DNA from: Olleya sp. YS
GTDB lineage: Bacteria > Bacteroidota > Bacteroidia > Flavobacteriales > Flavobacteriaceae
Direction of reading: 5' to 3'
NCBI RefSeq assembly: GCF_029760915.1
Contig: NZ_CP121685.1
Span: 1 to 64,000 of the forward strand
Length of the DNA: 64,000 bases
Below are positions 12,092-28,908 of this stretch, in pieces. The notes under the pieces are model-generated. The model worked only from the letters and a program-made list of their open reading frames with translations, made no database searches and was not told the DNA's origin. How positions within the stretch are numbered: the stretch's first letter is position 1; the number at the start of each line of letters is the position of its first letter. The translations under genes and the position numbers were made by a program.

Positions 12092-12421
12092 ATGGGATTA
12101 ATTAAAACCGAAAAATTTTCAGATTCTCAAAATCAGATTGCACTTTTTGCAAAAGCTTTAGGCCATCCTGCTCGTGTAGCTATTATTCAACATTTATTTA
12201 AAATAAATGCGTGTGTTTGTGGTGATTTAGTGGAAGAAATAGGATTAGCTCAACCTACAATCTCTCAACATTTAAAAGAACTTAAAAACCTAGGTCTTAT
12301 TCAAGGCACTATTGAAGGCACCAGCGTTTGCTATTGTATACATAAGGACAATTGGAAAGCTATGAAAGCTTTACTTAACTCCTTTTTTGATAACGATGTA
12401 AATAACAATACATGTTGCTAA
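12092..12421 (+). CDS. arsR: ArsR-family metalloregulator
   Basis: This is a winged-helix repressor of 109 residues that releases DNA when it binds arsenite or antimonite. The metal site ACVCGDLV supplies Cys41 and Cys43 in the alpha-3 helix, matching the ELCVCDL box of classical ArsR. The recognition helix QPTISQHLKELKNLGLI follows. Additional cysteines (VCYC near 83-86 and a terminal CC) could give a third ligand or tune metal selectivity. It begins a four-gene plus-strand operon with DUF6428, arsenate reductase and aquaporin genes. Confidence 0.93.
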   Translation: MGLIKTEKFSDSQNQIALFAKALGHPARVAIIQHLFKINACVCGDLVEEIGLAQPTISQHLKELKNLGLIQGTIEGTSVCYCIHKDNWKAMKALLNSFFDNDVNNNTCC

Positions 12422-12450
12422 TATCCAGAATTAATTAAACAATTTAAATT

Positions 12451-12900
12451 ATGACACTTTCAGAAGTAAAAAAACAATTATCAACTTTAAATCAGTTAAC
12501 TTTTACATTACCTGATGGTAGCTTAGTGCCAAGTCATTTTCACGTTACTGAAGTAGGAAAAACATCCAAACACTTTATTGATTGTGGTGGGACTTTAAGA
12601 CAAGAAAAAAAGATAAATTTTCAATTGTGGAGTGCTAACGATTATGACCACAGACTACATCCTGAAAAATTGATAAAAATTATTGAGCTGTCTGAAGACA
12701 TCTTAAATTTAGGCGATTTAGACATTGAAGTCGAATATCAAGGAGATTTAACAATTCAAAAATTTGGATTAGAATATAAAAACAATACGTTTCAATTAAC
12801 GTCTTTACTAACGGATTGCTTAGCAAAAGATAATTGTGGCGTTCCAACACAACAATCAAACAAAATAGAAAGTTGCGCTCCAGGTTCTGGTTGTTGCTAA
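12451..12900 (+). CDS. DUF6428 family protein of arsenic operons
   Basis: The 149-residue protein is cytoplasmic by appearance. Its N-terminal half contains LPDGSLVPSHFHVTEVGKTSKHFIDCGG, the recognisable DUF6428 pattern. The tail is unusually thiol-rich: DNCGV, SCAPGSGCC. Members are found next to arsR and arsenate reductase genes in Bacteroidota. The function is not established; arsenite binding or transfer by the C-terminal cysteines is my inference. It lies 29 nt behind arsR and 18 nt before the reductase gene. Confidence 0.85.
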   Translation: MTLSEVKKQLSTLNQLTFTLPDGSLVPSHFHVTEVGKTSKHFIDCGGTLRQEKKINFQLWSANDYDHRLHPEKLIKIIELSEDILNLGDLDIEVEYQGDLTIQKFGLEYKNNTFQLTSLLTDCLAKDNCGVPTQQSNKIESCAPGSGCC

Positions 12901-12918
12901 ATTAAAATCTAAAATTAA

Positions 12919-13533
12919 ATGTTTACAGACATCAACAATTACATAGAAACTTTAGATACAGAACTTATTTCTGAACAGCGAAAAAAAACGCTTGGACCAC
13001 TAATAGATTTTATATCATCAAAAAAATCACAAAACAAACCAATCAATTTAAACTTTATTTGTACTCACAATTCAAGACGAAGTCATTTATCACAAGTTTG
13101 GGCACAAGTTATTGCTCATTACTTCTCGGTTAAAAATGTAACTACCTATTCTGGTGGTACAGAAGCTACAGCTATGTTTCCAAAAGTAGGAGAAACGTTA
13201 ACTAAAACAGGGTTTAAAATTACAGCTTTGTCTGAAGGAAAAAACCCAGTGTATAGCATAAAATATTCAGATAACTTGCATCCCATAATAGCATTTTCAA
13301 AAACATTTGATAATGATTTTAATCCTAAATCAGAGTTTGCAGCTATATTAACCTGTTCTAGTGCAGATCAAGGATGCCCTTTTATTGCAGGAGCAGAACA
13401 AAGAATACCAATCACTTATGAGGACCCAAAAGCTTTTGATAATACAGAGTTGCAAGACGAAAAATACTTAGAACGCTCAACTCAAATTGCTACCGAAATG
13501 AAATACGTATTCCAACAGGTAACAACTAACTAA
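12919..13533 (+). CDS. Thiol arsenate reductase / LMW-PTP family
   Basis: This enzyme reduces arsenate to arsenite through cysteine chemistry. The P-loop FICTHNSRRSH provides Cys48 and Arg54 (C-x5-R). A second cysteine pair, CSSADQGCPF, lies around residues 150-157, followed by the acid loop YEDPKAF. At 204 residues it is longer than ordinary ArsC (about 130-140) because of an N-terminal helix and loop insertions, a form common in Bacteroidota. It sits directly before the aquaporin gene: the stop ends at 13533 and the next ATG begins at 13534. Confidence 0.9.
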   Translation: MFTDINNYIETLDTELISEQRKKTLGPLIDFISSKKSQNKPINLNFICTHNSRRSHLSQVWAQVIAHYFSVKNVTTYSGGTEATAMFPKVGETLTKTGFKITALSEGKNPVYSIKYSDNLHPIIAFSKTFDNDFNPKSEFAAILTCSSADQGCPFIAGAEQRIPITYEDPKAFDNTELQDEKYLERSTQIATEMKYVFQQVTTN

Positions 13534-14202
13534 ATGAAAAAATATCTAGCAGAAACTATTGGTACATTCGCCATGATATTTTGTGGTTGTGGTGCTATGA
13601 CCATAAATGAGATAACCCACGGAAGCATCACGCATGTTGGTATTGCTTCAGTTTGGGGCTTGATAGTAATGGCTATGATTTATGCATTTGGAGCGACTTC
13701 TGGTGCACATTTTAATCCTGCTGTTTCTATTGGTTTTGCAACAGCAAAAAAGTTTGCTTGGAAAGAAGTCCCAAGATACCTAATAGCCCAGTTTTTAGGC
13801 GCTATCATAGCTATAGCTTTACTAAGCTTTTTATTTCCTGAAAGTCAATTTTTAGGAGAAAGTACACCAATGATAGATTATCCAGATTATAAAGCTGCCA
13901 TTTTAGAGTTTATATTGACTTTTATTTTAATGATAGTCATCATCAACATTTCTACTGGTAGTAAAGAAATAGGTGTTATGGCAGGTATAGCTGTTGGTGG
14001 AGTTATTTTACTAGAAGCTATGTTTGCTGGACCAATAACCAAAGCCTCTATGAATCCTGTGAGAACAATTGCTCCAGCAATTTTTACAGGCCATTTTAAT
14101 CATGTTTGGTTTTATATATTAGCACATATTTTAGGTGCAATTTCTGCTGTTTTATCTTACAATATATTCAACCACAATACAGCAAACACAAAGTCTTGTT
14201 AA
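13534..14202 (+). CDS. Aquaporin/MIP channel in the arsenic operon (AqpS-like)
   Basis: The 222-residue integral membrane protein has six predicted helices and two half-helices. The first pore motif is a standard NPA (HFNPAVS, near residue 61); the second is NPV (SMNPVRT) rather than NPA. The channel follows arsenate reductase directly. In Sinorhizobium meliloti the aquaglyceroporin AqpS replaces an arsenite pump and lets arsenite leave down its gradient, which is a good model here. No ArsB or Acr3 pump gene is present in the window. Water or glycerol flux is the alternative role. Confidence 0.9.
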   Translation: MKKYLAETIGTFAMIFCGCGAMTINEITHGSITHVGIASVWGLIVMAMIYAFGATSGAHFNPAVSIGFATAKKFAWKEVPRYLIAQFLGAIIAIALLSFLFPESQFLGESTPMIDYPDYKAAILEFILTFILMIVIINISTGSKEIGVMAGIAVGGVILLEAMFAGPITKASMNPVRTIAPAIFTGHFNHVWFYILAHILGAISAVLSYNIFNHNTANTKSC

Positions 14203-14941: not shown

Positions 14942-16252
14942 TTGAAAACAATAGATAAAATACCGACTTCAAAAATTGCACGTGCTACCAAAATGGTTAC
15001 AACTGGAGCTAAAGTAGGTGTCAATTATTTAAAATATTATGGTGATAAAATCACTAAAACTGAAGCAGAAGCTAAAGCAAGATTAAACGAGAATAATGCA
15101 GAAGATATCTATGATGGCTTAAAGCAACTTAAAGGTAGTGCTCTTAAAGTTGCACAAATGCTTAGTATGGAAAAAAGCATTTTACCACAAGCCTATGTAG
15201 AAAAATTCTCGTTAGCGCAATTCTCTGTACCACCATTATCTGCACCATTAGTTAGTAAAACATTTAAACAATATTTTGGGAAATTACCTAGCCAAATTTA
15301 CGACTCTTTCAATCTTAACTCTGTAAATGCAGCCAGTATTGGTCAAGTGCATGTAGCAGAAAAGGATGGGAAAAAACTTGCTGTGAAAATTCAATATCCT
15401 GGAGTCGCAGAGAGCATTGCTTCAGATTTGGCTATGGTAAAGCCCATTGCAATAAAAATGTTTAATATTAAAGGAAAAGACTCTGATAAATATTTTAAAG
15501 AAGTTGAAAATAAACTAGTTGAAGAGACTAACTACCTTTTGGAAGTAGAGCAAAGTAAAGCAATTGTAGAGGCTTGTAAGCATATTCCAAACCTTAAATT
15601 TCCAGAGTATTACGAGGAATTATCGTCAGAACGTATTATTACTATGGACTGGATGGAAGGTGAACACTTGTCTGAATTTACTGCTCAAAATACAGACCAA
15701 GACAAAGCTAATAGGTTAGGTCAAGCCCTTTGGGACTTTTATATGTATCAAATGCACGTCCTTAAAAAAGTACATGCAGATCCACATCCTGGAAATTTTT
15801 TAGTTTCTAAAGAAGGAGACTTAATAGCTTTAGATTTTGGTTGCATGAAAGAAGTACCAAACGACTTCTACGTACCATATTTTGAACTAGCAAAAAAAGA
15901 AGTAATTAATAATCCTAAAGCGTTTACAGAAAAAATGTACGAGCTTGAAATCTTGCGTAAAGATGATAGTAAAGATGAATTAGCATTTTTTTCAGACATG
16001 TTTCATGAGTTATTAAGTCTATTTACAAGACCATTCCACGAAGAATCTTTTGATTTTTCCAATCCAGAATTCTTTGATGCTATCTCAGAAATGGGACAAC
16101 GTTACAGCAAAAGTACAGAACTACGCAAAATGAATGGTAATCGTGGTTCTAAGCACTTTATTTACATCAACAGAACATTTTTTGGATTATATAATTTGAT
16201 GTTTGATTTAAAAGCAAAAGACGTTAAAATAAATAATTTTATAAATTTATAA
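14942..16252 (+). CDS. ABC1/UbiB-like atypical kinase (AarF family)
   Basis: The 436-residue protein has the ABC1 signatures. These are the KxGQ-type motif as KVAQ (Lys69-Gln72), the Ala-rich loop AASIGQVH (130-137) in place of a P-loop, the VAVK-like lysine in AVKIQYPGV (Lys149), HADPHPGNF (His278) and DFG (Asp298). The third motif position is Ala rather than Gly. Family members support isoprenoid quinone synthesis or lipid homeostasis as ATPases more than as protein kinases. The start is TTG in the context ATTGAAAA. The stop overlaps the next start by one base (TAATG), implying translational coupling to the flavin reductase. Confidence 0.9.
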   Translation: MKTIDKIPTSKIARATKMVTTGAKVGVNYLKYYGDKITKTEAEAKARLNENNAEDIYDGLKQLKGSALKVAQMLSMEKSILPQAYVEKFSLAQFSVPPLSAPLVSKTFKQYFGKLPSQIYDSFNLNSVNAASIGQVHVAEKDGKKLAVKIQYPGVAESIASDLAMVKPIAIKMFNIKGKDSDKYFKEVENKLVEETNYLLEVEQSKAIVEACKHIPNLKFPEYYEELSSERIITMDWMEGEHLSEFTAQNTDQDKANRLGQALWDFYMYQMHVLKKVHADPHPGNFLVSKEGDLIALDFGCMKEVPNDFYVPYFELAKKEVINNPKAFTEKMYELEILRKDDSKDELAFFSDMFHELLSLFTRPFHEESFDFSNPEFFDAISEMGQRYSKSTELRKMNGNRGSKHFIYINRTFFGLYNLMFDLKAKDVKINNFINL

Positions 16253-16887
16253 TGCAATATTTCAGCAGAAAAGATATTGACACTTTACAACACTTATATA
16301 AAATTAATCTTATAAATAGTTGTTCTGGCTTTAAGAGTGCAAATTTAATTGGTACTAAATCTAAATCAGGTCAAGAAAACGTGGCTGTATTTAGCTCTGT
16401 AACACACATTGGTAGTAGTCCTCCTCTACTTGGTTTTTTTTGTAGGCCAACAACGGTAATGCGTCACACCTATGAAAACATTAAAGAAACTAATGTTTAT
16501 ACGCTAAATGCTATTCATTTAGAAAATTTTGAAGATGCACATCATACGTCTGCTAAATATCAAAAAGACATTTCAGAATTTGATATGACTAATTTAATTT
16601 CTGAATACAAAAAAGGTTGCTATGCACCTTTTGTAAAAGAGTCTCCAATGCAATTAGAAATGCAATTTGTGACAGAATACCCAATTAAAGAAAATGATAC
16701 GATTTTAGTTATAGGTGAAATAAAAGGTATACATATTAATAAAGATATATTAGAAGATGATGGCTTTATAAATTTATCTAAAGCCAATGTCGCTTCAATA
16801 AATGGATTAGATGGATACACAATACCAAAACTAGAAAAACGCTTAGAATATCAAAGACCGAAGTCAATAAGTAGTGAGCAGTATTAA
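16252..16887 (+). CDS. Flavin reductase-like FMN-binding domain protein
   Basis: The 211-residue protein is of the flavin reductase-like/FMN-binding split-barrel type. Recognisable segments are NLIGTKSKSGQENVAVFSSVTHIGSSPPLLGF, which forms the flavin pocket, and ENIKETNVYTLNAI. It may reduce free flavin or act as a flavin oxidoreductase. In this neighbourhood, supply of reduced flavin to photolyases or maintenance of flavin redox state is an attractive but unproven role. It is translationally coupled to the ABC1 kinase gene. An 83-nt spacer separates it from the oxidoreductase gene. Confidence 0.85.
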   Translation: MQYFSRKDIDTLQHLYKINLINSCSGFKSANLIGTKSKSGQENVAVFSSVTHIGSSPPLLGFFCRPTTVMRHTYENIKETNVYTLNAIHLENFEDAHHTSAKYQKDISEFDMTNLISEYKKGCYAPFVKESPMQLEMQFVTEYPIKENDTILVIGEIKGIHINKDILEDDGFINLSKANVASINGLDGYTIPKLEKRLEYQRPKSISSEQY

Positions 16888-18395: not shown

Positions 18396-18540
18396 AACTA
18401 TTAAAAAACAACATCTTCCAACTAAAACCTGCAATACCTGTGGTTTGCCATTTACTTGGCGTAAAAAATGGGAGAAAAACTGGGACGATGTAAAATATTG
18501 TAGTGAAAAATGCAGACGAAACAAAACAAAAATAGCTTAA
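18388..18540 (+). CDS. DUF2256 small zinc-ribbon-like protein
   Basis: This 50-residue gene is easily missed. The protein starts [19 protein letters not shown] and has two Cys pairs, C15-x2-C18 and C38-x3-C42, around a Trp-rich centre ([21 protein letters not shown]). This is the DUF2256 signature and suggests one zinc site. DUF2256 genes are typically found beside photolyase or cryptochrome genes; no function is established. The ATG overlaps the upstream stop by 8 nt, and the gene's 3' end overlaps the DASH cryptochrome start by 31 nt, so the three genes are translationally nested. Confidence 0.9.
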
Positions 18541-19823
18541 TCTGGTTCAGAAACAATCTAAGAACTCATGACAATGCATCTATTGTTAATGCAATTAATG
18601 AGAGTGAACAAGTAATTGCTATATTTTGTTTTGACCCTAGACAATATAATATATCTCCTTATGGATTTAAAAAGACTGAGAAATTTAGAGCACAATTTTT
18701 AATCGAAACCATAACCGATTTAAAAACACAATTAGCCAAACTAAACATTCAACTTTTTATTTATTTTGATTATACTGAATCGTGTATATCTAAACTAAAT
18801 AACACCTTTAATTTTGATGCTATTTATTTTCAAAAAGAATGGACACAAGAGGAAGTAGATATTACTAATAAAGTTATAAATATATTTCCAGAATCAATAA
18901 AAATTCGTGAGACATACAATCAGTTTTTGTTCCATCCAGAAGATATTAATATTGACGTTGAAAACATCCCACAAGTCTTCACTAATTTTAGAAAAAAAGT
19001 TGAAAAATACAGCAAAGTAAGACCTGAAACTGAAACTATTTCAGCAGAAAGAGACAACTTTAATATCAAAAACAACACTAAAATTCCTACTTTAAAAGAT
19101 TTGGGTTTTTCTGAATTTGAAACACACCCTAATTCAGCTTTTCCATGTAAAGGAGGTGAAACAGAAGCCATAAAAAGATTACAAAATTATTTTTTTGAAA
19201 CTAAAAAATTAGGGTTCTATAAAAAGACCAGAAACGGTTTAATAGGCACTGATTTTAGCAGTAAGTTTTCTTCTTGGTTAGCAAATGGTAGTTTATCTGC
19301 AAAACGCATCTATTGGGAAGTCAAACGTTTTGAAAAAGAACACGTTAAAAATCAATCTACCTATTGGCTAATTTTTGAACTTATTTGGCGCGATTACTTC
19401 AAATACATTTCGATGAAACATGGTAATCAAATTTTTAAATTAGAAGGCATTCTAAAAAAAGATTACGACTGGAGCGTCAACAAAAATAAAATCAATAATT
19501 GGATAAATGGAACAACTGGCGAGCCATTTGTAGATGCCAACATGATAGAAATTAAAAAAACGGGGTGGATGAGTAATAGAGGACGACAAAATGTAGCCAG
19601 CTATTTTGCAAAAGAACTGGAGTTAGATTGGCGCATAGGAGCCAGCTATTTTGAAAGTTTACTTATCGATTATGATGTCCATAGTAATTATGGCAATTGG
19701 ATGTACGTAGCAGGAGTCGGTAATGATCCAAGAGATCGAAAGTTTAATGTTAAACTTCAAGCAGAACGTTACGATACAAACGGAAAATACCAACGTTTAT
19801 GGCTTCAAGACACTCTTTTTTGA
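18510..19823 (+). CDS. DASH-type cryptochrome/photolyase
   Basis: Cry-DASH proteins bind FAD and usually a folate antenna and repair cyclobutane dimers, mainly in single-stranded or looped DNA. The 437-residue protein has the N-terminal antenna-binding Rossmann domain ([13 protein letters not shown]) and the helical FAD domain. Diagnostic DASH strings are [49 protein letters not shown] and [21 protein letters not shown]. The start ATG lies inside the DUF2256 gene with a 31-nt overlap. A hairpin plus T-run follows at the stop. Confidence 0.96.
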
Positions 19824-19902: not shown

Positions 19903-21435
19903 TTGAAAACATTAAGATTAATATTAGGCGACCAACTTAACAGTAAACATAGTTGGTATAAAGAAGACCAAGACAACGTTGTGTACTGTTTATTTGAAAT
20001 GCGTCAAGAAACAGACTATGTAACGCATCATATCCAAAAAGTTATTGGTTTTTTTGCTGCAATGAGAGACTTTGCGCAACACCTAGAAAAGCAAGATTGC
20101 AAAGTAGTTTATTTTAAGTTAGACGATAAGCAAAACACGCAAAGTCTAACAGAAAACTTAACCTTTTTAATTAAAGAACATCATATTAAAAAATTTGAAT
20201 ATCAGCTTCCTGATGAGCATCGTTTAGATGAGCAACTAACTGCTTTTTGTAAAGATTTAGATATAGACTCACAAAGTTTTTCTACAGAACATTTTTACAC
20301 TAAAAGACAAGACTTAGCTACTTTTTTTAAAGGAAAAAAACAGTTTTTAATGGAAAACTTCTATCGTGATATGCGTAAAAAACACGATATATTAATGGTA
20401 GCTGGACAACCTGAAGGTGGTAAATGGAATTATGATAAAAGCAATCGTAATAAATGGAAAGGAGAACATGACATCCCAACTTACAAATACTATAAAAATA
20501 ATGTTGAAAATATAGTTTCGCTTTTAGAAAAAGAAGATGTAATAACCATAGGTGAATTTGACACTAAAACCTTTAGCTATCCTATCAACAGGACTCAAGC
20601 TTTAGATCAGTTAAAGTATTTTTGTGAAGTGCTTCTCATCCATTTTGGTGATTACCAAGACGCCATGCATACAGACGAAGTGTATTTATTTCATTCTAGA
20701 TTGTCCTTTGCTATGAATCTTAAAATTATTTCACCAAAAAATGTGGTAGATACTGTCTTAAATTATTGGCGAAAACATGGTGAAAATATCAACATTAGTC
20801 AAGTTGAAGGATATATTAGACAAATCATTGGCTGGCGTGAGTATATGCGTGGCATGTATTGGGCTTTAACGCCTGACTACAAGTCTTTAAATCATCTAGA
20901 AAACAATAACAAGCTACCCGATTTTTTCTGGACTGGTAACACCAAAATGAATTGCTTAAAACAAGCCATAACCAATAGTTTAGATAACGGTTACGCACAC
21001 CACATCCAACGCTTGATGGTAACTGGTAATTTTGCTTTATTAGCGCAAATACATCCAGATGACGTTGACGCATGGTATTTAGGCATATACGTAGATGCTA
21101 TTGAGTGGGTTCAACTTCCCAACACAAGAGGAATGAGCCAATTTGCAGATGGCGGAAAAATAGCAACAAAACCTTACGTATCTAGCGGAAGTTACATCAA
21201 TAAAATGAGTAATTATTGTGATAGTTGCCATTACAATAAAAAAGAAAAACTAGGAGACAATGCTTGTCCTTTTAATAGTCTATATTGGAATTTTCTGGAC
21301 GATAAACGCCAACAATTAGGCAATAATTTTAGAATGGGTATGATGTATAGTCTTTTGGATAAAATGGAAAAAACACAACTCAGTCAAATTAAAGAAAGAG
21401 CACAAAAAATTATCGAAAATCCAGATGCTTTTTAA
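19903..21435 (+). CDS. Fe-S bacterial cryptochrome/photolyase (FeS-BCP, PhrB-like 6-4 photolyase)
   Basis: This branch (COG3046) carries a [4Fe-4S] cluster and a lumazine antenna, and PhrB of Agrobacterium repairs 6-4 photoproducts. The 510-residue protein has all four cluster cysteines: Cys351 (MNCLKQ), Cys439 and Cys442 (YCDSCHYN) and Cys455 (NACPFN). Each is one residue later than the C350/438/441/454 set I know from Agrobacterium PhrB. The N-terminus (LRLILGDQLN) and DVDAWYLGIYVDAIEWVQLPNTRGMSQFADGG are typical. The start is TTG in ATTGAAAA. The next photolyase gene starts 6 nt after the stop. Confidence 0.95.
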   Translation: MKTLRLILGDQLNSKHSWYKEDQDNVVYCLFEMRQETDYVTHHIQKVIGFFAAMRDFAQHLEKQDCKVVYFKLDDKQNTQSLTENLTFLIKEHHIKKFEYQLPDEHRLDEQLTAFCKDLDIDSQSFSTEHFYTKRQDLATFFKGKKQFLMENFYRDMRKKHDILMVAGQPEGGKWNYDKSNRNKWKGEHDIPTYKYYKNNVENIVSLLEKEDVITIGEFDTKTFSYPINRTQALDQLKYFCEVLLIHFGDYQDAMHTDEVYLFHSRLSFAMNLKIISPKNVVDTVLNYWRKHGENINISQVEGYIRQIIGWREYMRGMYWALTPDYKSLNHLENNNKLPDFFWTGNTKMNCLKQAITNSLDNGYAHHIQRLMVTGNFALLAQIHPDDVDAWYLGIYVDAIEWVQLPNTRGMSQFADGGKIATKPYVSSGSYINKMSNYCDSCHYNKKEKLGDNACPFNSLYWNFLDDKRQQLGNNFRMGMMYSLLDKMEKTQLSQIKERAQKIIENPDAF

Positions 21436-21441
21436 TAACAA

Positions 21442-22926
21442 ATGAAACAGAACCTAAGCATCGTTTGGCTAAAAAGAGACCTTCGTTTACAGGATAATGA
21501 AGCCATAACAAATGCTGCTAATTCTGGTAATCGTATCCTTCTACTCTATGTTTTTGAAGATTTCATGATTGAGGATAAACATTACAGTCAACGACATTGG
21601 GATTTTGTAAAACAATCATTGCAGGATTTAAATTTGCAATTAAAAACTTATAACTCTAAAATTTTAACCATAAATACAAAGGTTGAATTGGCTATTAAAA
21701 CATTACAATCTCAATTTAATATTACTCATGTTTTTTCTCATCAAGAAACAGGATTACTTTCTACTTATAAAAGAGATATCGCTTTCGCTGAGTTCTGCAA
21801 AAAACAGAATATTATTTGGACAGAAAACATCAATAATGGTGTACAACGCGGAATAACCAATAGACAAACTTGGGTTGAAGATTGGGAAACTTTTATGATT
21901 CAAGATGACTTTGTATTTAACCCAAAAGACAAACAACTACTTACTGTTTTAGAAGTTGAAACCCTTGAAAAAAGTTTTAAAACGGTTTCACTTAAAACAA
22001 CACCAAATACAAACTTCCAAAAAGGCGGAACTACTACTGGATTAAAATATTTACGTTCTTTTTTTAAAGAACGTTATAAAAACTACATGTTTCATATCTC
22101 AAAACCCTTAGAAGCCAGAACAGGTTGTAGTCGGTTATCACCATATATTGCTTGGGGAAATTTATCTATAAAACAAGTTATAAATGTAGCTGCAGAAGTA
22201 AGAAATCAATCTAAACACAAACGTCACTTAAATGCATTTATATCTAGATTACGTTGGCAATCACATTTTATTCAAAAGTTCGAGATGGAACACTTCATGG
22301 AACATAGAAGTTTAAATAAAGGCTATTTAACACTAAATAAACCAGTAAATAAAGCCTATCAAGATGCTTGGAAAACAGGACATACAGGTTTCCCATTGGT
22401 GGATGCTTGCATGCGTTGTTTAAACACAACAGGTTATCTCAATTTTAGGATGCGTGCGTTAGTCGTATCCTTTTTTACTCACAACTTATGGCAACCTTGG
22501 CAAGATTTAAGTGAGCATCTAGCAAGTCTGTTTTTAGATTTCGAAACAGGAATACACTATCCTCAAATACAGATGCAAGCTGGTGAAACAGGTATAAATA
22601 TGCTACGTATTTACAACCCATTAAAAAATAGCATAGAACATGATCCTGATGGTTTGTTTATTAAAAAATGGGTTCCGGAATTGACAAACTTAGACGCTCC
22701 ATTTATACATAATCCTTCAGAAATGTCTTATTTTGATCAGCAACTAACTGGTTTTGAATTGGGCAAAGACTATCCCTTCCCGATTATAAATGAAAAAGAA
22801 ACCAGAAAACATGCTAGCAATATTCTTTGGAGTGTGAAAGAGCTTCCTCTTGTAAAAAAAGAAAGTTATCGAATTTTAAAACGACATACTTTAAGCGATA
22901 GAAAACAAATGCTTCGCAACCAATAG
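21442..22926 (+). CDS. Atypical photolyase/cryptochrome-family FAD protein
   Basis: The 494-residue protein has the photolyase antenna domain ([16 protein letters not shown]) and a helical FAD domain ([17 protein letters not shown], then [35 protein letters not shown]). Where E. coli photolyase has the flavin-site NNGGWQW segment, this protein has HYPQIQM (residues 372-378). The N5-facing Asn and the proximal Trp of the electron-transfer chain are thus missing or replaced. The following MLRIYNP still aligns to FRIFNP. It resembles a Bacteroidota subgroup that regularly sits with FeS-BCP and DASH genes. Repair activity, signalling or another light role is open. Confidence 0.88.
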
Positions 22927-23009: not shown

Positions 23010-23459
23010 TTGAGTATATTCCAATATCGTTTGATACTAAACACAACACATACAAGTAAAGAAAATAAAGAGCTTATCAATGATTTGGTAGGCAAACCAT
23101 TTACATTCTTACAAAGTGTAAAAATGAAAGGTGTTGGATCTAAGCGTATGATTATTGATGAAGTTAGCCCAAACATGGCATCAATATTGAATACTATTGA
23201 TGATATTAATTATGGTAATATTGAATTAAGACCAAAGGGTATTATTATACACATTATTAAAGGTTTAAAAAACTTTGCATGGGTTATACCATATTATCAA
23301 TTGGTGATTTACAAAATAAACGGAACTAGTATTCATTCAAACGGAAAATTTATTCATTTTAGAAATAATAAAACGTTTAAAGAAAACAAGAAATTTTTTG
23401 ATAAATTATTAAATGAAAAAGTAAAATATGATGAACAGTTTAATTTTTCGCCAATATAA
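23010..23459 (+). CDS. Unknown protein of the photolyase island
   Basis: I do not recognise a family. With the TTG at 23010 the protein has 149 residues; it is basic, mixed alpha/beta in look, without signal peptide or clear membrane helix. Notable segments are ELINDLVGKPFTFLQSVKMKGVGSKRMIIDEV and FAWVIPYYQLVIYKINGTSIHSNGKFIHF, which hint at a small beta-rich, possibly PH-like domain. The TTG at 23010 is part of the -7 box TACATTTG, so the true start may be the next in-frame TTG at 23031. That start lies 39 nt from the operator half-site, compared with 40 nt for the TetR-like gene. The TIGR03643 gene begins at the next base after the stop. Confidence 0.7.
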   Translation: MSIFQYRLILNTTHTSKENKELINDLVGKPFTFLQSVKMKGVGSKRMIIDEVSPNMASILNTIDDINYGNIELRPKGIIIHIIKGLKNFAWVIPYYQLVIYKINGTSIHSNGKFIHFRNNKTFKENKKFFDKLLNEKVKYDEQFNFSPI

Positions 23460-23738
23460 ATGACAACAAAATTTACAATTGAAGAACTAGATCGCATCAT
23501 AGAAATGGCTTGGGAAGATCGCACACCATTTGATGCTATTACATTTCAATTTGGCATCAAAGAGCAAGAAATTATACAAATCATGCGACGCGAAATGAAA
23601 CCAAGTAGTTTCAGATTATGGAGAGCAAGAGTCCAAGGAAGAAGTACAAAACATAGTAAAAAAAGACCATTTGAAGAAGGTCGATTTAAATGCACAAGAC
23701 AAAAACAAATTACACACAACAAAATATCTAAACGTTAG
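23460..23738 (+). CDS. TIGR03643 (DUF2805) family protein
   Basis: The 92-residue basic protein starts FTIEELDRIIEMAWEDRTPFDAITFQFGIKEQEIIQIMRREMKPSSFRLWRARVQGRSTKH, the hallmark of TIGR03643/DUF2805. The core looks like a small helix-turn-helix (residues 6-45) followed by an Arg/Lys-rich tail, so nucleic-acid binding is possible. Members are commonly encoded beside photolyase/cryptochrome genes. No function is established. It has no gap to the upstream unknown gene and a 59-nt gap to folE that contains a perfect inverted repeat. Confidence 0.9.
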   Translation: MTTKFTIEELDRIIEMAWEDRTPFDAITFQFGIKEQEIIQIMRREMKPSSFRLWRARVQGRSTKHSKKRPFEEGRFKCTRQKQITHNKISKR

Positions 23739-23797: not shown

Positions 23798-24493
23798 ATG
23801 AACAACAAACAAACACTGGTAAAAACAAACGGTCATCACTTAAACGGTTTTGATATTGAAGAAATCGGAGACGACCACCTTTACACTGGTTTGGAAACAC
23901 CAATGAGAGCAGACGCTTTCAAGCTTTCTGACAAAGAAAAAAAGGAAAGAATAGCTATATTATTTGAAGAAATAATGGAAGTAATGGGCTTGGATTTGAC
24001 CGATGATTCATTAAAAGGTACACCTAATCGTGTAGCAAAAATGTACATTGATGAAATATTTTCTGGATTAAACCCTCAAAATAAGCCAAAAATTGCGTTA
24101 TTTGACAACAAATACCAATACAATCAAATGTTGGTGGAGAAAAACATTACTTTCTACTCCAACTGTGAGCATCACTTTGTGCCCATAATAGGTAAAGCTC
24201 ACGTAGCCTATATTTCTTCAGGAAAAGTCATAGGCTTATCAAAATTAAATAGAATTGTACAGTATTATGCTAAACGTCCTCAGGTACAAGAGCGCTTAAC
24301 AAATCAAATAGCAGAAGACCTAAAAGCAACTTTACAAACAGATGATGTTGCTGTAATTATTGATGCCAAGCATTTATGTGTTTCGTCACGAGGTATTAAA
24401 GATGAATCTTCTGCTACAGTAACAACTTTCTATGGTGGACAATTTAATACACCAGAGAAAATAGCCGAATTACAGAATTATTTAAAAGAGTAA
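23798..24493 (+). CDS. folE: GTP cyclohydrolase I
   Basis: FolE converts GTP to 7,8-dihydroneopterin triphosphate, the first step of folate and other pterin synthesis. The 231-residue protein has the zinc ligands in SNCEHHFVPI and CVSSRG, and the core VIGLSKLNRIVQYYAKRPQVQERLTNQIA. Within the light island it could supply pterin for the folate (MTHF) antenna of photolyases; this is inference, since the enzyme is also housekeeping. It follows the TIGR03643 gene, and a 74-residue gene follows 4 nt downstream. Confidence 0.96.
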   Translation: MNNKQTLVKTNGHHLNGFDIEEIGDDHLYTGLETPMRADAFKLSDKEKKERIAILFEEIMEVMGLDLTDDSLKGTPNRVAKMYIDEIFSGLNPQNKPKIALFDNKYQYNQMLVEKNITFYSNCEHHFVPIIGKAHVAYISSGKVIGLSKLNRIVQYYAKRPQVQERLTNQIAEDLKATLQTDDVAVIIDAKHLCVSSRGIKDESSATVTTFYGGQFNTPEKIAELQNYLKE

Positions 24494-28473: not shown

Positions 28474-28908
28474 ATGTACCAACTTAATTACCATTCAAAA
28501 TCAAAATCAGGGTTAGTTCTAAAAGATCTAGAAAACATTCTTGAAAGTGCTATCTTCACAAATTCCTCAAGAGATATTACAGGTTGCCTTATTTTTCATA
28601 ATAAAAATTTTGTACAAATATTAGAAGGTAAAAAAAAGGATGTACAAGACGTTTATGAAAAAATTAAAATGGATAATAGACACTCTGATGTCACATTACT
28701 TTGGGAAAATAAGGTAGACAAACGATATTTCCCGGAATGGAATATGGCCTACCACAAACCAGAAAATGAAAACTTAAAACAATATGTCAATAACCTAATG
28801 TTACTTTCAGCTCTTTCAGATAGATCGACAGGATCGTTACTAAGTTTTTGGGCAACTGTCCGTAAAATATTAAATAATGATAAAAAACATCAACTAAAAG
28901 AAATTTAG
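28474..28908 (+). CDS. BLUF-domain blue-light photoreceptor
   Basis: BLUF proteins bind FAD non-covalently and signal through a hydrogen-bond switch. The 144-residue single-domain protein has Tyr6 (NYHSKS), Asn30 (TNSSRDITG) and Gln48 (FVQILEG). Their spacing is the same as Tyr8, Asn32 and Gln50 of cyanobacterial PixD. The conserved DNRHSDVTLLWENKVDKRYFPEWNMAY supplies the W-x-M region. About 45 residues of C-terminal helix follow, with no effector domain, so it must act through a partner. A small membrane protein gene starts 6 nt later. Confidence 0.94.
   Translation: MYQLNYHSKSKSGLVLKDLENILESAIFTNSSRDITGCLIFHNKNFVQILEGKKKDVQDVYEKIKMDNRHSDVTLLWENKVDKRYFPEWNMAYHKPENENLKQYVNNLMLLSALSDRSTGSLLSFWATVRKILNNDKKHQLKEI

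Follow-up and report, generated by a model that had tools for sequence, protein, structure and literature searches.

The textbook photolyase combines a flavin with an Asn at its N5, a wire of Trp residues and a pocket for CPD or 6-4 lesions, and the roles of the E. coli photolyase residues used below for comparison are well established. The FeS-BCP photolyases, like the protein described here, depart from the N5 Asn and from the classical triad. A subfamily with the flavin loop of this protein is not named in the available parts of three surveys (PMC7560933, PMC9498864, PMC9649867), a scope outside which the 2020 similarity-network paper on NewPHL falls.

The gene under study is located in the window, i.e. 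the whole stretch of 64,000 nucleotides that was analysed (Table 1), and its ORF is intact, with an ATG start and no internal stops. Pfam analysis of the 494-aa product found an N-terminal DNA_photolyase domain (residues 6-125, 3.5e-60) and a C-terminal FAD_binding_7 domain (residues 266-461, 6.8e-20). Structure prediction, which the initial annotation had proposed as a check, was carried out with AlphaFold2 supplied with 36 family sequences and gave a model (pLDDT 93.3, pTM 0.92) with the photolyase/cryptochrome fold. When this model was used in a Foldseek search, every photolyase/cryptochrome subfamily was matched, with TM values of about 0.75-0.83 and identities of 16-24%, and none was prominent. 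Domains and matching fold identify the window protein as a member of the photolyase/cryptochrome superfamily. The genome contains three FAD_binding_7 genes (the one under study, a DASH gene and phrA) and one gene of the FeS-BCP type; with the canonical CPD photolyase paralogue PhrA the window protein shares 24% identity.

Table 1. Coordinates of the features discussed, numbered from the first position of the window. Residue equivalents refer to E. coli photolyase and counts to aligned family members or surveyed loci.
Feature	Position	Strand	Evidence
H-loop family photolyase-like protein, 494 aa	21442..22926	+	Pfam domains, AlphaFold2 model, fold search
R269 codon, replaces CPD-contacting E274	22246..22248	+	R in 120/120 members and in cyanobacterial and haloarchaeal sister proteins
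W310 (= W306, outer Trp)	22369..22371	+	Kept in 119/120
F335-R-M-R-A339: N341 to F, M345 to A; R338 (= R344) kept	22444..22458	+	F 119/120, A 115/120, R338 120/120
W353 (= W359, middle Trp)	22498..22500	+	Kept in 117/120
Flavin loop D366-M378	22537..22575	+	Matches E. coli D372-W384; D366, G370, H372 invariant; Q375 119/120
H372 codon, replaces the Asn (E. coli N378) that faces flavin N5	22555..22557	+	H in 120/120 members
I376 codon, replaces proximal Trp W382	22567..22569	+	L/I/F/V/T/M, W in 0/120 members; W in cyanobacterial and haloarchaeal sister proteins
Flavin-reductase-like protein, candidate source of reductant	16252..16887	+	Pfam Flavin_Reduct 3.9e-19; within 8 kb in 32/80 loci
Cry-DASH paralogue	18510..19823	+	TIGR02765 497 bits, above cut-off
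FeS-BCP-type (prokaryotic 6-4) photolyase paralogue, next gene upstream	19903..21435	+	Pfam DPRP 1.7e-75; adjoins family gene in 46/80 loci
DUF2805/TIGR03643 small protein, conserved neighbour	23460..23738	+	Within 8 kb in 48/80 loci
GTP cyclohydrolase I FolE (pterin synthesis; might supply the antenna)	23798..24493	+	Within 8 kb in 23/80 loci
Canonical CPD photolyase paralogue, NVGNWQW loop	27006..28310	+	Alignment

The initial annotation had read HYPQIQM at residues 372-378, where E. coli photolyase has NNGGWQW, with the flanking motifs kept, and had feared that the manual alignment of this loop could be off by one residue. The window protein was realigned by MAFFT with the window's own paralogues, including PhrA, and with E. 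coli K-12 Phr. In this alignment, LDFETGI-H372-Y-P-Q-I376-Q-M378 of the window protein faces IDGDLAA-N378-N-G-G-W382-Q-W384 of the E. coli enzyme, and the loop ascribed to PhrA as canonical was found as described. The register is anchored by D366 and E368 (D372 and D374 in E. coli) before the loop and by R389-I-Y-N-P after it, the sole gap, of two residues, being located beyond the loop. Since both flanks fix the register, the replacements N378 to H, W382 to I and W384 to M are real, and an off-by-one or gap error is ruled out. As had been stated, the loop contains no Trp, none being present between residues 354 and 409, and no replacement Asn or Trp is supplied from elsewhere in the loop.

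The conservation of these residues was counted over 120 aligned members, mostly from Bacteroidota, of what we refer to as the H-loop family. H372, R269, R338, W272 and D366 are invariant. Position 376 is L in 62 members, I in 27, F in 22, V in 4, T in 2 and M in 2, and is never W, while position 378 (E. coli W384) is M in 118 of the 120. The substitutions reported initially are thus found family-wide, and the protein is not an isolated divergent paralogue but has the form that is usual in a conserved family. Because the first member of the triad is absent throughout the family, the classical triad is unable to work as in E. coli, and FADH- must arise by another route, which the initial annotation had raised as a possibility. 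The residue following the His, at position 373, is aromatic (Y, F or W) in 119 of 120 members. Phe is a poor electron donor and occupies this position in 51 of them, so that residue 373 is not a Tyr/Trp relay common to the family; in the aligned sequences, an alternative aromatic relay of family-wide extent is not obvious.

The changes extend to the lesion pocket, which the initial annotation had not mentioned. All the class I CPD contacts compared (E274, N341, M345 and W384) are altered, their counterparts in the window protein being R269, F335, A339 and M378, respectively. R278, an FAD contact in E. coli, is replaced in the family by Q or H at position 273, with Q273 in the window protein. 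Kept residues of the FAD site are D366, E368, R338 (R344 in E. coli), Y215 and S230/S233, and W272, equivalent to E. coli W277, is also present. We infer that the window protein binds FAD, several contact residues of which are kept and others changed.

With the class I/III CPD photolyases (E. coli PhrB and Agrobacterium PhrA), the window protein has in common the domain order, the fold, most of the FAD phosphate/ribose site (SRLS, Y215, R338, D366, E368), W272 and the two outer triad Trp residues, with a TM of about 0.8 and 22-23% identity. It differs from them in N378 to H, W382 to I, W384 to M, E274 to R, N341 to F, M345 to A and R278 to Q, and belongs to a separate clade (support 100/99). 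Scores against the class I NCBIfam models are well below the cut-offs (PRK10674, 143.7 vs. 506; 8-HDF, 127.2 vs. 884.6 bits), a test that is weak by itself because the PhrA of the window is also below both (330.5 and 371.1 bits). Assignment to class I is ruled out by the changed CPD contacts and by the absence of the N5 Asn and of W382, only W353 and W310 being kept. Cry-DASH gave the best PDB match in the fold comparison and also in the sequence comparison (1np7, which scored 232 bits against the family profile); however, the window protein is without the DASH Asn/Trp loop, scores 152 bits with TIGR02765 against a cut-off of 317, and is placed outside the DASH clade. Plant cryptochromes are similar in that the N5 position is altered (Asp there, His here) and in a C-terminal GxELGxxYPxPI segment, but they keep the proximal Trp where the window protein has Ile, and the latter has no CCT extension. 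A plant cryptochrome is excluded by this His and Ile in place of Asp and Trp and by the TIGR02766 score (142.8 vs. a cut-off of 603.9 bits).

The remaining classes were also rejected. The (6-4) photolyases and animal cryptochromes are excluded by the separation from the Drosophila (6-4) clade and by F335 and A339 in place of the His pair, and the FeS-BCP (prokaryotic 6-4) class by the absence of the PF04244 N domain, only PF00875 and PF03441 being found. Class II CPD photolyases are excluded by the TIGR00591 score (57.5 vs. a cut-off of 550 bits), NewPHL, which has an inverted topology with an N-terminal FAD domain, by the C-terminal position of this domain in the window protein, and the PhrSph98-type (class II-like) by domain order and profile scores. 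A phage or plasmid origin was discarded, since the phage collection gave only weak partial matches and viral contigs one partial relative. Photolyase genes without annotation were seen in records labelled as Listeria, Enterococcus and Staphylococcus phage, which are probably host DNA.

Family members were detected in 36 of 247 Bacteroidota genomes (E<=1e-60), and at least 580 related coding stretches were found in genome contigs. The family ranges over Bacteroidota, Vibrionaceae, Alpha- and Gammaproteobacteria and Deinococcus, with members on plasmids or second chromosomes in Vibrio, Salinivibrio, Pseudoalteromonas, Duffyella, Tritonibacter, Novosphingobium, Deinococcus and others. In a set of 25 sequences having 36-60% identity to the window protein, dozens of residues are invariant. 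The phylogeny of the branch, also suggested earlier as a check, was obtained from FAD domains with E. coli, Agrobacterium class III, Sulfolobus, DASH, plant CRY, Drosophila 6-4 and pigeon CRY sequences as references. The H-loop members formed one clade outside the reference classes (support 100/99), and the support was still 100/97 without the loop and four pocket columns. The H-loop clade and the cyanobacterial and haloarchaeal proteins split from all reference classes at 100/100 and 100/99, in a tree that was midpoint-rooted, has long branches and is uncertain in its deep rooting.

The cyanobacterial (Nostoc, Tolypothrix) and haloarchaeal plasmid proteins are the closest sister lineages, and R269, F335, A339 and the NFRMRAM motif are common to them and the family. 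Both keep Trp at position 376 (DNWQW and NYTQW, respectively) and have Asp or Asn where the family has His372. Because these sisters keep it, the Trp was lost inside the lineage; the simplest reading of the sequences is that the pocket was altered first, and that the Asn-to-His change and the Trp loss followed a single time, in the common ancestor of the H-loop members. The window protein has all the marks of the family (R269, F335, A339, H372, a non-Trp residue at 376 and a position in the single clade), and belongs to an old and widespread branch of light-driven DNA-repair enzymes that is apparently undescribed so far. In the relative from Halorubrum sp. BOL3-1, the N domain and the FAD domain are annotated as two separate CDSs, perhaps because of a frameshift.

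The gene is surrounded by an island with three other photolyase genes, a BLUF gene and a flavin reductase gene. The neighbourhood was surveyed within 8 kb in 80 named Bacteroidota loci (Table 1). The FeS-BCP photolyase is both a neighbour and the constant companion of the family, although it is a separate protein with a different N domain (PF04244 vs. PF00875). In fact, PF04244 is present in 36 of 36 carrier genomes, as compared to 83 of 247 overall (hypergeometric p-values of 1.6e-20 by genome and 1.4e-11 by genus, which ignore shared ancestry and habitat), a co-occurrence that could stem from a common sunlit habitat. At least one further FAD_binding_7 protein was found in every carrier genome among the Bacteroidota searched, and the role of the family is therefore regarded as accessory. 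The DUF2805 gene is present in 31 of 36 carrier genomes, as compared to 42 of 211 others. In Vibrio pelagius, a DUF2805/TIGR03643 gene is also close to the family gene, and a flavin reductase gene is the next one after it. The 149-aa ORF at 23010-23459, which has no Pfam or NCBIfam match, lies within 8 kb of the photolyase gene in 25 of the 80 Bacteroidota loci and adjoins it in 24. The BLUF blue-light sensor at 28474-28908 is at the end of the island, and the 80 related loci gave no match to it in the 8 kb on either side of the family gene.

Several relatives have links to DNA repair. All seven Deinococcus plasmid matches are annotated as uracil-DNA glycosylase (UDG). These seven ORFs, from seven species, encode proteins of 753-774 aa in which the photolyase-like domain is N-terminal to a UDG with intact GQDPYH and HPSP motifs; Pfam detected UDG and both photolyase domains in the three fusions tested. 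In Deinococcus strain QL22, the fusion gene adjoins dinB and a gene for spore photoproduct lyase. Seven of the eight unfused proteobacterial members of the Deinococcus subclade have an extreme C terminus reading QLDLF, QLGLF, QLKLF, QLSLPF, QLVLDL, QMQLDL or QMQFDL, and QPxLF is present in six of seven Deinococcus linkers. Known bacterial sliding-clamp motifs are QL[SD]LF and the QLSLPL of Hda, which these tails and linkers resemble. Motifs of this type were counted in 13 of 15 Deinococcus and proteobacterial tails against a shuffle mean of 0.03, in a comparison for which the QP variant was added to the pattern once the tails had been inspected and in which not all rows are independent, and in none of the 112 other tails (Bacteroidota/Vibrio subclade, including the window protein). 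The window protein carries neither the UDG fusion nor the clamp motif, both of which occur in another subclade.

We give about even chances to the interpretation that the window protein, as a member of a distinct photolyase subfamily, serves as an accessory enzyme in DNA repair that probably depends on light, with an altered lesion specificity and with FAD reduced by cellular reductants rather than through the Trp triad. FADH- would be held reduced by such reductants, for example by the flavin reductase of the island, and the Trp wire would therefore be dispensable. The Trp triad has been described as not always essential (PMC7560933). His372 and Arg269 may form a pocket for a lesion that is poorly repaired by the co-resident CPD, DASH and FeS (6-4) photolyases. 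The substrate might be uracil-bearing photoproducts, such as CPDs with deaminated cytosine, in which case light would reverse the dimer and UDG would remove the exposed uracil. UDG acts on a deaminated CPD only after photolyase splits the dimer (PMC12887450), and the fusion fits uracil-containing CPDs because the glycosylase is blocked until then. Alternatively, the substrate might be a (6-4)-derived lesion such as the Dewar isomer, which would fit the tie to the FeS (6-4) enzyme. The full scheme is a tentative and rather doubtful one: a further kind of photolyase without the Trp triad, which would pass uracil-containing (deaminated) CPDs to UDG (fused in Deinococcus, free elsewhere), with sliding-clamp delivery in some lineages, or would act on a Dewar-type (6-4) derivative. 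As a counterpoint, the FAD contact R278 is changed in addition to N378. Mutation of E274 or N378 in the classical enzymes impairs CPD repair, and catalysis may for this reason have been lost.

Another possibility is a light-independent DNA-damage factor, which would bind DNA that is UV-damaged or being replicated and would assist excision repair or recruit it, FAD being structural or absent. Neither the UDG fusion nor the clamp motifs require photochemistry, and the loss of the proximal Trp and of the CPD-contact residues is in line with such a role. We consider it unlikely, given that the FAD-site residues D366, E368, R338, Y215 and S230/S233 are kept, that the gene is in a light-linked island (BLUF and three other photolyases) and that in the Bacteroidota genomes searched the family never occurs without other photolyases.

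The initial annotation had also suggested that light might be used for signalling instead of repair. A blue-light sensor, or bacterial cryptochrome, would signal to a partner protein by FAD photochemistry near His372. The change at N5 is reminiscent of the cryptochromes of plants and insects, which have Asp and Cys there, respectively; Asp is present also in the cyanobacterial sisters, and the conserved small neighbours (DUF2805 and the 149-aa ORF) are potential partners. On the other hand, the window protein has no sensor/effector fusion, output domain or C-terminal signalling extension, the fusion partner found in relatives is a DNA-repair enzyme and clamp-type motifs occur in a subclade, which makes this role rather improbable. 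With moderate confidence, we prefer a repair function, of altered specificity and with an external source of electrons for FAD, to signalling, because of the Deinococcus UDG fusions, the proteobacterial clamp-type motifs, the location in a photolyase island and the strict co-occurrence with the FeS (6-4) enzyme.

It is also quite improbable that the protein is an ordinary CPD or (6-4) photolyase with another electron route, for example through the aromatic residue 373 and the remaining W353 and W310. Position 373 is nearly always Y, F or W, both outer Trp residues are kept, and triads of another composition have been described for DASH and class III enzymes (PMC7560933); however, the frequent Phe at 373, the alteration of all the substrate contacts E274, N341, M345 and W384, and the CPD, DASH and FeS (6-4) enzymes already present in the genome argue against it. 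A decaying or neutral paralogue, or a pseudogene, is hardly credible, since, despite the loss of textbook residues, the ORF is intact, dozens of residues are invariant in the 25-sequence set and the same substitutions are fixed in 120 relatives from several phyla, a conservation that refutes it.

By their published descriptions, two further proteins may be members of the family, namely VcCry2 (VC1392) of Vibrio cholerae and Phr1 (RS9916_27184) of marine Synechococcus. The function of VC1392 is given as unknown in PMC4019646, and the protein is described as an ssDNA photolyase in PMC5241685 and PMC11976125. The C terminus of Phr1, DQQLQLEL, as read from the published reverse primer (PMC9426592), ends in QLQLEL and is similar to the proteobacterial tails of the family. 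Loss of Phr1 lowers UV-C survival 6-fold, and Phr1 expressed in E. coli gives light-dependent protection from UV-C, not from UV-B (PMC9426592). The legend of Figure 1 in the same paper can be read as indicating that Phr1 has the N5 Asn, in which case it would be outside the H-loop clade.

The H-loop proteins constitute a large natural family in which the replacements of the Asn, of the first Trp and of the pocket are fixed, and which is still found in repair-gene islands and fused to UDG in Deinococcus. The family is a natural experiment on the need of photoenzymes for the Trp triad and the N5 Asn, and might bring to light a pathway that repairs deaminated or other rare photoproducts, with a bearing on UV mutagenesis in sunlit bacteria. 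The label "deoxyribodipyrimidine photo-lyase" carried by many members may mislead. Elsewhere in the window, at 12092-14202, genes for an ArsR-type regulator, a phosphatase/reductase-like protein and an aquaporin-type channel are consecutive and resemble an arsenic-resistance operon.
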